DNA of 64,000 nt, taken from positions 3,410,001 to 3,474,000 of the forward strand of contig NZ_CP058348.1 of the NCBI RefSeq assembly GCF_013752535.1, given 5' to 3'. Made by a program: the position numbers and the translations under genes. The notes under the pieces were generated by a model. That model was not told where the DNA came from, did not search any database, and saw nothing but the letters and a program-made list of their open reading frames with translations. Of the stretch, positions 38,574-47,694 are shown in pieces (the stretch's first letter is position 1; each line of letters opens with the position of its first letter). Source of the DNA: Bdellovibrio sp. KM01. Lineage in GTDB: Bacteria; Bdellovibrionota; Bdellovibrionia; Bdellovibrionales; Bdellovibrionaceae.

Positions 38574-39200
38574 TTACTTTTCTACCACGCCCATCACTTC
38601 AGTTTCGCGAAGGATGACGAGGTCTTCATTTTTTAATTTAATTTTTGAACCGGAGTATTGCGAGAACACAACTTTGTCCCCGACTTTCAGTTCCATTGGC
38701 GTCAAGTGACCTTTTTTATTCACATGACCACGCCCCACAGAAACCACTGTTCCATGCAGATTGCCGGAAACATCAGCTACCGTGTCTGGAATATAAAGCA
38801 AACCGCTCGCCGACATACGATCAGAACCAGAAGTTTGCACAATCAAACGATCATCCAGTGGAGTGACAAAATCACTGAGGTCCACCAACTTTTTCGCTGC
38901 TGGCTTTACCAAATGAGCCATCGCTGGCGCTTTAGTTTTTACGGCTGGAGATTTCTTTGCCGGTGCTTTAGCTACTTTTTTAGGTGCAGCTTTCTTAGGT
39001 GCTGCCTTTTTCGCAGCCGTTTTTTTAACAGCCTTCGGAGCTGCTTTCGCTGCGGCTTTTTTTACTGGAGCTTTTTTTGCGACTTTACCCGCAGACTTTT
39101 TTGCTGGCGATTTTTTAGAAACTTGTTTTGCGACTTTTTTAACGACCTTTTTTGCGGTCTTTTTTACGGCTTTCTTAGCAGAAGATTTCTTCTTAGCCAC
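38574..39200 (-). CDS. groES2: GroES-like co-chaperonin with long histone H1-like N-terminal tail
   Basis: 208 residues from a GTG at 39200 (AAAGGG 7 bases upstream). Residues 1-98 are almost only Lys, Ala, Pro, Val and Ser in KKxxAKK units, like bacterial histone H1-like proteins. Residues 112-208 form a complete Cpn10 domain (TPLDDRLIV, mobile loop DRMSASGLLYIPDT, GTVVSVGRGHV, LKVGDKVVFSQYSGSKIKLKNEDLVILRETEVMGVVE). The hydrophobic loop tripeptide that docks on GroEL is kept. No groEL is next to it, so this is a second, unlinked groES, as reported for B. bacteriovorus. The tail may bind DNA or RNA; this is inference. Confidence 0.9.
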   Translation of the reverse strand: MAKKKSSAKKAVKKTAKKVVKKVAKQVSKKSPAKKSAGKVAKKAPVKKAAAKAAPKAVKKTAAKKAAPKKAAPKKVAKAPAKKSPAVKTKAPAMAHLVKPAAKKLVDLSDFVTPLDDRLIVQTSGSDRMSASGLLYIPDTVADVSGNLHGTVVSVGRGHVNKKGHLTPMELKVGDKVVFSQYSGSKIKLKNEDLVILRETEVMGVVEK

Positions 39201-42557: not shown

Positions 42558-42865
42558 ACCTTCTAAGGATGCCTCAGAATAAACACGAAACAAATTAATA
42601 TTTTGTCCCGGGACCGACCTAGGTAGGTGACCCTCACTAAATTGGAATAAATTCGGGTAAATACAGAAGTTCGACTTAGATATCGCAACCATTCTAACGG
42701 TGTCATCGCGCCCTCTCGAGTAAGGATTACTCGAATGGCGGTTCCTTTTGCACCCACCTATAATACGTCGCAGCCAAAAGTGGTAACGTAAGTAGCTGAA
42801 ATTACTTAAATAATTTTATATATCTGGGGCTTTGAATTGGTACGCCTATTGCTTACTTCTGCAGT
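42558..42865. promoter_or_regulatory. 308-base divergent control region before the RiPP-like operon
   Basis: A TATAAT box at 42759-42764 with a poor -35 (TGGCGG) could start the rightward operon, leaving a leader of about 95 bases. A CCTAGG palindrome lies at about 42617. A perfect hairpin TCGAGTAA-GGA-TTACTCGA (42716-42734) ends at an ATG that opens an 18-codon frame. No other gene is seen. Confidence 0.45.
42735..42791 (+). CDS. Possible 18-residue leader or precursor peptide
   Basis: Short frame MAVPFAPTYNTSQPKVVT followed by TAA. AAGGA lies 8 bases before the ATG, inside a perfect hairpin. The upstream position relative to the radical SAM gene would suit a leader peptide or a second small substrate. 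It has no Cys. A TATAAT at 42759 lies within it, so if that is the promoter this frame is not transcribed. Weakly supported. Confidence 0.25.
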   Translation: MAVPFAPTYNTSQPKVVT

Positions 42866-44173
42866 ATGGAAATTCGGAGACAAAATGACATCATTGCTTT
42901 TCGTGCGCCTGGGGAAACCCCAGTGGCTTTTCATGCGCGAAATCTAGAGGTCGCCGACATCTCCGAAGAACTTTGGGGCGAGATGACCCAAGCGTCCAAC
43001 GACTCCCTTCAGTCCGTGTTGACTGACTGGAACAACGAAATCAACCCCCAAACAACAACGACAGTTCCCGGTAAAGAAATTCGCGCGCTGACCATCAACG
43101 TTACGCAAATTTGCAATTTGAAATGCACATACTGCGCAGCTGGTGGCGATGGGACCTACGGTGCTGCTCAAACTAAAATCTCGGTTGAAAAAACCCTACC
43201 GCAGCTAAAATATTTCCTGGAGAAGGTTTCTGATTCAGGAACATTCCGCATCGGCTTCATCGGTGGCGAACCCCTGCTTTATCCAGATGGTATTCGTGCC
43301 ATCGCAAATTATGTGAAATTGATGACGGCAGGAAAAAATATTCGCGCGCAGTTTTCTATTGTGACGAATGGAACTTTGCTGACGGATGCAAACATCGCTT
43401 TGCTTGAAGAAATCAAATGCAATATCTCCGTAAGCATTGATGGCCAAGCTAAGTACAACGATGCGGCTCGCCCTATGAAAAACGGTCAAGGCAGCACCGC
43501 TGTTGTCGTTGAAGGCCTTAAAAAACTTTTTGCTCGTAAAGAAAATTTCGGTTCCATCACTTTGCATGGTGTTTTCACAGCTGAAAACATGCACGTGGCG
43601 GAGGCTTATGAGTTTTATCGCCAATTCCCAGCGGATGCGTACGAATTCACTTACAGCGTTTCTGATTTGAATCAGGAAGCCAGTGATACTTTCACGCGCG
43701 AGATGCGCTTGATCGCGGCCATGGCTTACTCCCAAGGTGGCGAGACTGCACTTCGTAAGATCAGCTTTTTTAATCGCATTTTCTCGGCGTTGGATGAACA
43801 ACGTCGTACGGAAAACTTCTGTGGCGCCGGGAAATCCTTCCTGGTCGTTGATGCCCGTAACAACCTCTTTACCTGCCCTTGGGACGTTGGCAACAACGCC
43901 ATGAAAGTGGGTCAAGGCACAGAGGTTTCCGAGGCCGCATTAGAAGAGTACTCAAGCCCCCTGATTGAACAAAACAACTGCCAAAGCTGCTGGGCCAGAT
44001 TCCTTTGCGGCGGTGGCTGTATGTATGTTCACAAGGAAGCTACGGGTTCAAAACATCAAAAAAACGGTCAATTCTGCGAAAGAACGCGCAGCTTGGTCGG
44101 AACAGCAATTTTATACTTTAAAAAAAGTCGTCAGACTGATATTCAAGAGGACAGTGACTATGGAAAACACTAA
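42866..44173 (+). CDS. Radical SAM/SPASM peptide maturase (RiPP-type)
   Basis: 435 residues. The radical SAM [4Fe-4S] cluster is CNLKCTYC (Cys 83, 87, 90); the SAM-binding GGEP is in FRIGFIGGEPLLYP. The C-terminal SPASM domain has seven Cys, with the core C-x2-C-x5-C-x3-C at 372, 375, 381 and 385 (CQSCWARFLCGGGC) plus FCGAG and FTCPWD before and a last FCER. This pattern is that of enzymes making thioether or C-C crosslinks in ribosomal peptides. The N-terminal 75 residues may be a peptide-binding entry domain; no clear RRE is seen. No good ribosome binding site precedes the ATG. Its end overlaps the small peptide gene. Confidence 0.92.
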   Translation: MEIRRQNDIIAFRAPGETPVAFHARNLEVADISEELWGEMTQASNDSLQSVLTDWNNEINPQTTTTVPGKEIRALTINVTQICNLKCTYCAAGGDGTYGAAQTKISVEKTLPQLKYFLEKVSDSGTFRIGFIGGEPLLYPDGIRAIANYVKLMTAGKNIRAQFSIVTNGTLLTDANIALLEEIKCNISVSIDGQAKYNDAARPMKNGQGSTAVVVEGLKKLFARKENFGSITLHGVFTAENMHVAEAYEFYRQFPADAYEFTYSVSDLNQEASDTFTREMRLIAAMAYSQGGETALRKISFFNRIFSALDEQRRTENFCGAGKSFLVVDARNNLFTCPWDVGNNAMKVGQGTEVSEAALEEYSSPLIEQNNCQSCWARFLCGGGCMYVHKEATGSKHQKNGQFCERTRSLVGTAILYFKKSRQTDIQEDSDYGKH

Positions 44174-44264
44174 AAAAACTACGACCCACATCAAGAAAGT
44201 AAAGCCTCGTGGCAACGTGCTTTCTGCCGTACCCACAGCCAGCGAATGCATCCCCGTTAAATAA
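44160..44264 (+). CDS. 34-residue putative RiPP precursor peptide
   Basis: Starts inside the last 14 bases of the radical SAM gene in another frame, with AGAGGA 8 bases before the ATG; overlapping starts of this type imply translational coupling. The leader-like part (residues 1-20: MENTKKTTTHIKKVKPRGNV) is basic and polar; the end LSAVPTASECIPVK holds the only Cys (residue 30), two Ser and two Thr that could be linked to it. It has no aromatic residue, so cyclophane or tyramine chemistry is unlikely. Position and size, not homology, support the call. Confidence 0.7.
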   Translation: MENTKKTTTHIKKVKPRGNVLSAVPTASECIPVK

Positions 44265-44297: not shown

Positions 44298-46178
44298 ATG
44301 AAACTGCCAAGTCCATTCGAGGAAACAACGAACTCCTCGAAACCAGTGCAATACCGCGTTTACGCGATCAGAGCTGTATTAGCTATGATCATGGCGTTCC
44401 TTATTGCGCAAATCAATTTGGACTATGTGGAATCATGGCTTTACGACTTCCGCATCCGCTCGCAGCTCTTCCAAAGAACTTCCGAAAAAATTGAGCTGGT
44501 TTATATCAAACCCTCAACGGTTCAGGCTTTCAAAGGCCAACCTAACGCCAAGGACCAGACGGCTATTCTTTATAACCTGCTTGCCGCTCACCCGCGCGCC
44601 GTGGTCTATGACTTTGCAATCGACGATGCCCAAGGCAGCGAAGAAGACAAAGCTGAATGGGCGAACCTGATCGTTCAAAGCACGAATGTCTATGTGGCCA
44701 CTCCCGACACCCCATTAAAGGGCGAGGAGCGCAGCCTCTATTTACCTCTGCCGTTTGATCATGTGCGCATGGTTTCGGCTCCTAAGACTTCTGATACCAT
44801 TAACTTTGCCAAAGACCGCGTCACTCGCCGTATGCTTTTGTCTTATCAGGATTCATTGATGCTTCCTGTGACTTTGGCGGGCTTTTATAATCCTGATGTT
44901 TTAGATTTCAGAAATATCCGGGGTTATTTTGATTTCTATGATACCAAGCAATCCTTTATCGACTACCGTCGCCCCGGCTCGTTCCCGTCGACCGTATTTG
45001 ACGATCTTGCCAATGGCAAAGTGGATTGGACTAAATTCGAAGATAAGATCGTTATCATCGGCACTGATTTAAATATCAGCGAGTCGGACTATATTCTGAC
45101 TCCCTACAGCCGTATTCCTTCGGCTATGACCCGCATTGAAATGCAGGCAAATATTATCGATACCCTGATCCGTAATTCCAGCCCGGTCAGAATGCCCACC
45201 TATGTGAATTGGATTCTGCTGACTTTGATTTCCATCTTGGCGATTCAAATCGTCCTGAGCATGAGCCCAGCAATGGGTTTGGTGATTTTAGTGGGAACAC
45301 TAACAGGATTTTCGGTTATCTCGTTCACGCTGTTCTGGTTATTTGGCTGGTGGATCACGATGGCCGCTCCGCTGCTGGCGGGTTTCCTGGTTTACTATTT
45401 CTTTATCCCTTACCGTCTGATCATCGAAAACCGTCGTAGCTGGGAATACTATCAAAAGAATAAACTTTTAAGTCAGGTGGAAGAGCTTAAGACGAACTTT
45501 ATCTCGATGATGTCCCATGATTTGAAGACGCCGATTGCGCGTATTCAAGGGATGACGGACGTGATCCTGGCGGATCAGGTGCAATTGAGCACGCAACAGC
45601 GTGAAGCCGTTGATACGATCAAGCACTCGTCGGACGACCTATTGAAATTTATCAGCTCGATTTTGAATTATGGAAAAATTCAAAGCGAAGGCGTGGAACT
45701 GCACATGCAAACCAAGGACATCAACAATGTCCTGCAGGAAGTCATCCGTAAGCATGAGTTCCTGGCAAAAGTAAAACGCATCCAAATCGTGTCAGAGCTT
45801 GAACCACTGTTCCCTATTCGCATGGATCCGGATTTGATGCGCCAAGTGCTTTCAAATCTGGTGGAAAATGCGATCAAGTACAGCCCGGATGACACGAAAA
45901 TTCTGGTTACCAGCGAGGAAAAGGATGAACGAGTTGTCATCCAAGTTTCTGACCAGGGACCGGGAATTCCAGAGGACGAACTGAATAATATTTTCATGAA
46001 GTTCTTTAGAAGCAAAAACGTAAAGAGCACGCAGATCAAAGGCTCTGGGTTGGGCCTTTACCTGGCTAAATATTTTACAGAACTACACAAGGGACGCATC
46101 TTTGTGGAGTCGAAAGATGGAAAAGGTTCCACATTTACGGTAGAACTGCCGATGGAACAAGGGGGCGTAAATGCTTAA
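44298..46178 (+). CDS. CHASE2-domain sensor histidine kinase
   Basis: 626 residues. One N-terminal membrane helix (AIRAVLAMIMAFLIAQINL), a large extracytoplasmic CHASE2 domain (about 45-300, IELVYIKPSTVQAFKGQPNAKDQTAILYNLLAAHPRAVVYDFAI onward), three membrane helices (about 305-380, as is usual after CHASE2), then HisKA with the phospho-acceptor His 407 in MSHDLKTPIARI, and HATPase (NLVENAIKYSPD, DQGPGIPEDE, GSGLGLYLAKYF). The stop overlaps the regulator gene by 8 bases. It starts 33 bases after the small peptide gene on the same strand, so may be in its operon. Ligand unknown; CHASE2 could sense a peptide in the periplasm. Confidence 0.95.
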   Translation: MKLPSPFEETTNSSKPVQYRVYAIRAVLAMIMAFLIAQINLDYVESWLYDFRIRSQLFQRTSEKIELVYIKPSTVQAFKGQPNAKDQTAILYNLLAAHPRAVVYDFAIDDAQGSEEDKAEWANLIVQSTNVYVATPDTPLKGEERSLYLPLPFDHVRMVSAPKTSDTINFAKDRVTRRMLLSYQDSLMLPVTLAGFYNPDVLDFRNIRGYFDFYDTKQSFIDYRRPGSFPSTVFDDLANGKVDWTKFEDKIVIIGTDLNISESDYILTPYSRIPSAMTRIEMQANIIDTLIRNSSPVRMPTYVNWILLTLISILAIQIVLSMSPAMGLVILVGTLTGFSVISFTLFWLFGWWITMAAPLLAGFLVYYFFIPYRLIIENRRSWEYYQKNKLLSQVEELKTNFISMMSHDLKTPIARIQGMTDVILADQVQLSTQQREAVDTIKHSSDDLLKFISSILNYGKIQSEGVELHMQTKDINNVLQEVIRKHEFLAKVKRIQIVSELEPLFPIRMDPDLMRQVLSNLVENAIKYSPDDTKILVTSEEKDERVVIQVSDQGPGIPEDELNNIFMKFFRSKNVKSTQIKGSGLGLYLAKYFTELHKGRIFVESKDGKGSTFTVELPMEQGGVNA

Positions 46179-47694
46179 GGTTTTGGTAGTAGACGACGAT
46201 CAAGGGTTAAGACTGTCCGTTAAAACAGCTCTTACAGCCAACCAACGTTTTGACGTCGACGAAGCATTCGATGGCATCAACGCCATGGAAAAAATTAAAG
46301 CCGGCACGACGAAGTACGACCTTGTTATTCTTGATGTCGACATGCCTCGCTTGAATGGTCTTGAAACTCTTCGCGCCATCAAAGAATACGACTCTGGAAT
46401 CATCGTGATGGTCATGACAGCGCACGCGACTTTGAATGATGCTGTTCAAGCAGTTAAAGACGGCGCATACAACTATCTTTCCAAACCAGTTGCGGGTGAT
46501 GAGTTACTGGCTTTGATCGACAAAGCCGTGAACGCCCACAACTTGATTTCCAATATCGCATTCTCTGCACCGGTGATGGTAGAAGAAGGTCGCAAGATCA
46601 TTGGTCACACATCCCAAATGCAAAAAGTATTTAACATCATCCACCGCCTTGCCAAAGTGGACACTCCGGTTTTGATCCGTGGCGCTTCGGGTACGGGTAA
46701 AGAGTTGGTCGCAAAAGCGATCCACTTTAACTCTGCCCGCAAAGACGAAAAATTCGTGGCAATCAACTGCTCTGCAATTCCAGAGAACTTGTTTGAATCT
46801 GAATTGTTCGGTCATGAAAAAGGGTCCTTCACAGGCGCTGACCAACGTAAAATCGGTAAATTCCAATTCGCTGAAGGCGGCACTTTGTTCTTGGACGAAG
46901 TGGGTGACATGCCCCAGCTGATGCAAGTTAAAATCTTGCGCGTACTTCAGGAAAAACTATTTACGCCAGTGGGTTCGAACCGCGAATTCGCCAGCAACGT
47001 ACGTATCATCGCTGCGACAAACCGTCCTTTGGAAGACATGATCAAAGCGGGAACTTTCCGTGAAGATTTGTTCTATCGCCTGAACGTCGTACCTATATTC
47101 TTGCCAGCTCTTCAAGAGCGCAAAGACGACCTTGAGCACATGATCAACATCTTCATTAAGAAGTTCAATCAAGCTCAAGGCAAACGCATCAATGGAATCA
47201 CTCCGGATGCCATGGCGGTTCTTAAAAAGCATTCTTGGCCAGGAAATATTCGTGAGCTTGAGAACGTGATTGAACATGCTTTCGTTCTGGAAACGAGCAA
47301 CCTCATCACTTTGGCTTCATTGCCAGAGGCTTTGTTGATCGCAACAGGGACTAACTTAATCGACCTTTCACCGTTTGAAACGGCTCAAAATGTGGCTTCT
47401 GCTGGCATCGTTAAGGCAGCAAAGGCGCATGTGAGCTTGGGTGAAGACGATGAAAACGCTGGCAGTGATATCGACTCCGAAGACCTTGAGGGTGAAGAGA
47501 TCGTTCCTTACTCTGGCGAGAATCTTGATTTCAACGCGCAAAAAGAAGCGTTCGAAAAAGAATTCATCATCAAGGCACTTAAAACTTTCCGTGGTCGCAT
47601 CAATCAAACGGCACTTCACGCGAACATTCCGAAAAAAACTTTGCTACGCAAAATTGAAAAATACGGAATTATCGCCAAAGACTACGCAAACTAA
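46171..47694 (+). CDS. NtrC-family sigma-54-dependent response regulator
   Basis: 507 residues. Receiver (VVDDDQ; phospho-Asp in LVILDVDMPRLNG; MTAH; SKPV), AAA+ domain (Walker A GASGTGKELVAKAIH, the sigma-54 contact loop GSFTGAD, a working variant of GAFTGA, Walker B GGTLFLDEVGDMP, RIIAATNRP, REDLFYRLNVVPI, HSWPGNIRELENV), an acidic linker (about 430-455), and a Fis-type helix-turn-helix (INQTALHANIPKKTLLRKIEKYGI). Partner of the kinase just upstream. Targets unknown; I found no confident sigma-54 promoter in the window. Confidence 0.96.
   Translation: MLKVLVVDDDQGLRLSVKTALTANQRFDVDEAFDGINAMEKIKAGTTKYDLVILDVDMPRLNGLETLRAIKEYDSGIIVMVMTAHATLNDAVQAVKDGAYNYLSKPVAGDELLALIDKAVNAHNLISNIAFSAPVMVEEGRKIIGHTSQMQKVFNIIHRLAKVDTPVLIRGASGTGKELVAKAIHFNSARKDEKFVAINCSAIPENLFESELFGHEKGSFTGADQRKIGKFQFAEGGTLFLDEVGDMPQLMQVKILRVLQEKLFTPVGSNREFASNVRIIAATNRPLEDMIKAGTFREDLFYRLNVVPIFLPALQERKDDLEHMINIFIKKFNQAQGKRINGITPDAMAVLKKHSWPGNIRELENVIEHAFVLETSNLITLASLPEALLIATGTNLIDLSPFETAQNVASAGIVKAAKAHVSLGEDDENAGSDIDSEDLEGEEIVPYSGENLDFNAQKEAFEKEFIIKALKTFRGRINQTALHANIPKKTLLRKIEKYGIIAKDYAN

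Follow-up and report, generated by a model that had tools for sequence, protein, structure and literature searches.

A four-gene operon of Bdellovibrio sp. KM01 was found that, with a probability of roughly 0.8, encodes a new kind of radical-SAM-modified peptide together with its own switch; both the chemistry and the role of the product are inferred. The operon lies in the window, which is the whole 64,000-nucleotide stretch of DNA that was analysed. Sequence comparison shows its four genes to be conserved and co-linear; they encode a radical SAM/SPASM maturase, a single-Cys precursor peptide, a CHASE2 sensor kinase and a sigma-54 response regulator. The new parts are the precursor family and the two-component wiring. 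Support comes from sequence and predicted structure, without mass or expression data.

Organization of the locus

The host genome of the window is a single contig of 3.96 Mb, and those retrieved relatives that bear names belong to Bdellovibrio and Bdellovibrionales. The preliminary description of this DNA had reported a radical SAM/SPASM maturase with a full CxxxCxxC motif and a SPASM core, followed by a 34-residue frame with a binding site upstream and a 14-base overlap, and both genes were found as described. The maturase (42866..44173, + strand, 435 aa) was assigned from its ORF and from family, structure and sequence comparisons. The precursor peptide, MENTKKTTTHIKKVKPRGNVLSAVPTASECIPVK (44160..44264, + strand), is encoded in a different frame from the maturase, with AGAGGA upstream of its ATG, and its assignment was based on the ORF, conservation, selection and a profile search. 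After a gap of 33 bases comes the gene for the CHASE2 sensor histidine kinase (44298..46178, + strand, 626 aa), which follows the peptide gene in 61/62 loci. This gene overlaps by 8 bases that of an NtrC-type sigma-54 response regulator of 507 residues (46171..47694, + strand), recognized by its domains (receiver, AAA+ and Fis HTH) and its neighbourhood. Because of the tight spacing, it was inferred that the four genes are likely to be carried on one transcript.

No exporter, protease or immunity gene was found within the conserved operon when the neighbourhoods of related loci were read, and the previous remark that no transporter or protease is adjacent was correct. The most informative context, namely the downstream kinase and regulator and the sigma-54 promoter, had been absent from that account.

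Three side observations were made. At one locus (L083, genome G137), the sole such case among the loci read, the regulator gene does not follow the kinase gene but is found on the opposite strand, upstream of the maturase gene. This Bdellovibrionales operon was also present (L125, CALQIT020000002.1) in a record titled as a Streptomyces griseus MAG, an organism label that is probably wrong. Elsewhere in the window (38574-39200, - strand) a GroES-like protein follows a Lys/Ala/Pro-rich, histone-H1-like tail of about 100 residues; this fusion, identified by eye without a family search, is unusual for a co-chaperonin.

Distribution and conservation of the precursor peptide

When 291 genomes from across the phylum were searched, a maturase orthologue (E≤1e-40) was detected in 58, all of them within the order of the window and distributed over three family-level groups. 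Maturase loci of the Bdellovibrionales were then taken with their flanks (62 loci), and their 60 distinct peptide sequences were used for residue counts. In 61 of the 62 loci, the interval between the maturase and kinase genes holds a small ORF whose product combines a basic leader with a C-terminal Cys. The remaining locus is at a contig end; its peptide was recovered by the profile search on another contig (G228:C3:62-160), 83 bases before a kinase match. Conservation of the small frame beside the maturase, which had been proposed as a check, was confirmed by these results.

The Cys residue was present in all 60 distinct peptides and Pro at Cys+2 in 57, and a HIKK-like leader, with the consensus HIKKxKP, was seen in at least 55. 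In the window the leader motif is HIKKVKP (residues 10-16; 44187..44207, + strand) and the core is Cys30-Ile-Pro32, or C-x-P (44247..44255, + strand). The ASEC end emphasized in the preliminary description was not upheld, as the residues ASE were not conserved and only the Cys and Pro(+2) were. Exactly one Cys was found in 61/62 peptides, Trp was absent from every peptide and Tyr was absent from 57/62. The residue after the Cys was Ile in half of the distinct sequences (30/60) and Pro, Arg, Phe, Thr or Glu in the others. The peptides are strongly basic and non-hydrophobic and have no signal segment; a further example, the G006-type peptide, is MTQQTHIKKIKPLKPKPSSTTKLAGPGGGTGEGCIPVR. One locus (L056, G259) has two tandem peptide genes in the maturase-kinase interval, encoding MNTKTQHIKKVKPVKAIATSTTGLSCIPIG and a longer second copy. 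Divergent peptides were encoded at three loci of family f4 (L079, L082 and L086), where the Cys is kept and C-P-E or C-E-I replaces C-x-P; these variants offer natural variation for mapping the modified residue.

Substitutions between relatives numbered 451, 373 and 1037 at codon positions 1, 2 and 3, respectively, and dN/dS was mostly about 0.1-0.3. As read from these substitutions, the peptide frame is under purifying selection, and the claim passes the refutation test that had been set for it, the small frame being conserved in all relatives in which the maturase is kept. The counts take in related pairs and are descriptive only; their direction did not differ among the clades that had changed enough. 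The overlap with the maturase gene proved to be a local feature and not one of the family, since the peptide gene touches or overlaps the maturase end in only 20/62 loci.

A peptide profile (36 sequences, 32 positions) was run over the 291 genomes. Matches with E<1e-4 were obtained in 41 genomes, each at this maturase locus, and no clear match was obtained outside the locus or in a maturase-free genome. Weaker matches elsewhere were partial and at noise level. The profile overlooks some divergent true members, as is expected with 32 positions. The precursors were recognized by no NCBIfam model, leader families included, and no recognizable peptide of the C-x-P kind was found beside distant maturase relatives from other phyla (L164-L190).

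Features of the maturase

Pfam Radical_SAM was detected in the maturase with an E-value of 5e-19. In a 55-member alignment all of the radical SAM and SPASM cysteines were invariant. They comprise the CxxxCxxC cluster (C83, C87 and C90; 43112..43135, + strand) and the SPASM region, assigned to auxiliary clusters, with C319, C337, C372-x2-C375-x5-C381-x3-C385 and C404 (43820..44077, + strand); C319, C337 and C404 are additional to the core that had been described previously.

The AlphaFold model of the maturase had a pLDDT of 92 and a pTM of 0.91. Its best PDB match was CteB (TM 0.80), to which it is also related in sequence (E 6e-34), followed by ChlB, anaerobic sulfatase-maturating enzymes and TigE; the epimerase EpeE (8ai4) was also among the structural matches, and both EpeE and TigE ranked below CteB. 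In NCBIfam the nearest models were those for the Nif11-like peptide maturase and the PapB maturase, with scores far under every cut-off shown.

The model places a beta4-alpha2 domain of about 60 residues at the N-terminus (42866..43045, + strand), for which no Pfam match was found. The five best PDB matches of this domain were all to the RRE of TbiB1 with leader peptide, none of them significant (E 0.19-0.45). On the strength of the modelled fold, it is probably an RRE-like leader-binding element, subject to the reservation that the fold match lacks significance; leader binding is inferred. A viral origin was considered and rejected, as viral contigs contained only distant radical SAM relatives (best match 28% identity).

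Comparison with known RiPP systems

A radical SAM/SPASM maturase and a co-conserved adjacent short precursor were both present, and the precursor was absent where there was no maturase. The claim that this precursor matches no named RiPP core motif was supported by testing the motifs on the 60 distinct peptides. PapB joins Cys-X3-Asp/Glu (PMC9413430), and a ranthipeptide of the PapB/freyrasin type was rejected because Asp or Glu stands at Cys+4 in only 1/60 peptides; an NxxC ranthipeptide was rejected in the same way, with Asn at Cys-3 in only 1/60. The cyclophane type was excluded by the scarcity of aromatic residues near the Cys (6/60 only), streptide (Lys-Trp) by the lack of Trp, and PqqA (Glu-Tyr) and spliceotides (Tyr-Gly) by the lack of Tyr in most peptides. 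A SCIFF precursor has six Cys in about 45 residues, not the one Cys seen here. A sactipeptide, in which Cys forms a thioether to an alpha-carbon and the acceptor type is variable, is compatible with an invariant Cys and no constant acceptor.

The nearest known enzyme by both sequence and fold is CteB, the SCIFF maturase (PDB 5wgg/5why; TIGR03974), which likewise combines radical SAM and SPASM regions with an N-terminal domain; in contrast to the number of Cys residues in its precursor, one is found here, and the TIGR03974 score was 142.8 against a cut-off of 425. The best NCBIfam match was the Nif11-like peptide maturase (TIGR04064, E 1.6e-56), but that system was also rejected, with 192 bits compared to a cut-off of 518.7 and precursors that match no NCBIfam leader family. 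The PapB/freyrasin maturase (NF047865) was second (179.4 bits, cut-off 340), and Cys is the thioether donor of PapB.

The single Cys had been regarded as an oddity. It remains true that no family fits, but single-Cys thioether RiPPs do exist: NxxcA of Streptococcus carries one thioether, from Cys23 to Asn20 (PMC8326336). Although the NxxcA/NxxcB system resembles the present one in its single thioether, NxxcA needs an Asn at -3, and no Rgg/SHP regulator is found here. Judged from the peptide sequences, the novelty is the lack of an Asn or Asp/Glu acceptor and not the single Cys alone. The streptococcal RaS-RiPP operons are hard-wired to an Rgg regulator (PMC13361665), and the present operon is similar in being tied to a regulator of its own; unlike the Rgg/SHP operons, the one here, in the Gram-negative Bdellovibrionota, uses a membrane CHASE2 kinase and a sigma-54 activator. 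No description of a radical SAM/RiPP system or a CHASE2/sigma-54 system from Bdellovibrio was found in the literature searched, which included few subscription journals; RiPP clusters are mentioned in PMC8067016 only in general terms.

A sigma-54 promoter precedes the operon

A sigma-54 (-24/-12) promoter, TGGTACGCCTATTGCT (42838..42853, + strand), is located 28 bases before the maturase ATG. Of 60 loci, 48 have the pattern TGG-N8-TTGCW within a 150-base segment at the start of the maturase gene, compared with 0.19 expected from letter shuffles. The strict match was absent from the other 12 loci, some of which contain near-matches. The distance from promoter to ATG was 28-32 bases in the 19 nearest loci, so that a nearly leaderless mRNA is predicted there, and 38-86 bases in farther relatives.

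Upstream of the promoter is a perfect inverted repeat, CGAGTAAGGATTACTCG (42717..42733), a candidate regulator site. This palindrome belongs to the clade of the window, and its core is kept in near relatives. Either the genus element TGAAATAGTTTCCTTTTG or, in the window's clade, CGAGTAAGGATTACTCG stands about 110-120 bases before the promoter; the element is kept within the genus only and is not common to all loci. From its sequence and position it is plausible that it acts as an activator site for the response regulator, a function that is inferred. In the three genomes that have an exact copy, TGAAATAGTTTCCTTTTG was found exactly at this operon only, which suggests local autoregulation. A wider regulon was rejected on this basis and on that of the matches with 3 mismatches, which were no commoner than in the control.

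The features of an autoregulated operon are present, namely a -24/-12 promoter before the operon, a sigma-54 activator encoded inside it and rpoN in the genome. It is likely, by inference, that the response regulator switches on the promoter of its own operon; the action of the regulator on the promoter is untested.

The kinase-regulator pair is older than the peptide unit

The sensor part of the CHASE2 kinase was found in 133/291 genomes, compared with 58/291 for the maturase; the kinase is phylum-wide and nearly always single copy. Regions upstream of the kinase were read in 20 maturase-free genomes, of which 19 were intact and one ends at a contig edge. The same sigma-54 regulator follows the kinase in all 20, and the peptide was found in 0/19 of the intact loci with kinase and regulator; one ORF there had a chance C-x-P without the leader motif. 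Because the pair spans the phylum and also occurs in maturase-free loci, it is considered to be older than the peptide system and to have a wider distribution, and the basic circuit therefore does not need the peptide. In 8 maturase-free genomes TGG-N8-TTGCW also lies no more than about 310 bases from the start of the kinase gene; sigma-54 control of the pair is therefore probably older than the peptide.

When mapped onto the kinase tree, maturase presence requires 6 changes, at least 4 of which are forced by well-supported branches. The count of 6 includes one genome (G008) with a contig break, and gain could not be distinguished from loss. Since kinase-only genomes exist, lack the peptide and are separated by forced changes on the tree, the maturase and peptide are missing together. 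By this comparison of genomes, they form one unit that was either gained by or lost from the older pair.

Discussion

In the proposed mechanism the N-terminal domain of the maturase would bind the HIKKxKP leader, and the active site would receive the C-x-P end. That the maturase acts on the peptide in this way is inferred in the absence of mass data and is regarded as very probable. The nature of the product is much less certain. By analogy with CteB, it may be a thioether centred on the Cys, with a loss of 2 Da, that reaches a nearby carbon of the backbone or of a side chain, an inference given about an even chance. A sactionine-like bond, for which the side chain is irrelevant, is favoured because only the Cys and Pro are constant and there is no acidic, Asn or aromatic partner. 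The thioether cannot be read from the sequence, because no acceptor residue was conserved around the Cys in the 60 peptides, and epimerisation or some other modification of Cys or Pro is possible.

That last option, in which C-x-P is epimerised or otherwise changed, for example to give a redox-cofactor precursor with a reactive Cys, is a competing but less likely explanation. It draws on the invariance of Cys and Pro alone without a constant acceptor, and on the presence among the structural matches of the epimerase EpeE and of TigE, which forms cyclopropylglycine (PDB 8vpo; PMC9062424). However, both enzymes match worse than CteB, the variable residue after the Cys is ill-suited to Ile/Val-specific chemistry, and the operon contains no further biosynthetic enzyme. 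Even less can be said for the peptide acting unmodified, as a cytoplasmic kinase partner or output protein, with the maturase serving another substrate. Although the peptide gene always directly precedes the kinase gene and is separated from the maturase end in many loci, the peptide tracks the maturase and not the kinase, the genome-wide profile gave no clear match outside maturase loci, and a leader with a Cys core is the layout of a maturase substrate; this explanation was judged highly improbable. The small frame is short and overlaps the maturase end in the window, as might an ORF that arose by chance or serves as a regulatory leader and yields no functional product, but this reading is barely tenable given amino acids conserved across three families, the third-position bias of substitutions and a peptide that was never lost where the maturase was kept.

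The response regulator would activate the sigma-54 promoter before the maturase, and the modified peptide would in turn influence either the CHASE2 kinase itself or the state of the envelope which this kinase senses. Such feedback, by a regulatory or signal peptide and not an antibiotic, is a guess whose odds are put a little below even. An antimicrobial or predation peptide resembling sactipeptides or ranthipeptides, directed against prey or rivals and merely timed by the two-component system, would agree with the antimicrobial nature of many radical SAM RiPPs, with the predatory habit of the Bdellovibrionota (PMC8067016) and with the regulated production that is common in such systems, as under Rgg in the streptococcal RaS-RiPPs (PMC13361665). 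It is nonetheless improbable. A signal role is favoured because exporter, protease and immunity genes are all absent from the conserved operon, the very basic peptides have no hydrophobic signal, and a single copy, present in nearly all sampled members of the family and conserved across divergent lineages in place of a variable, patchy repertoire, is accompanied by a kinase and regulator. The most far-reaching version of the signal reading, a new RiPP class in predators in which a single-Cys C-x-P peptide, modified by radical chemistry in a way not yet described (such as a thioether from Cys to Pro or to a neighbouring carbon) and lacking a dedicated exporter, is the autoregulatory ligand of the CHASE2 kinase, is possible but doubtful.

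For radical SAM enzymology the peptide provides a small, single-Cys substrate. Almost all genomes sampled from the predator family have one conserved copy of it, tied to a kinase and a sigma-54 regulator, and this favours a housekeeping or life-cycle signal over an optional antibiotic. Whether a radical-modified peptide sets a two-component switch becomes a testable question in a genetically tractable predator and, if the ligand reading is true, it would establish a connection between two-component signalling and radical SAM peptide chemistry in the Bdellovibrionales.
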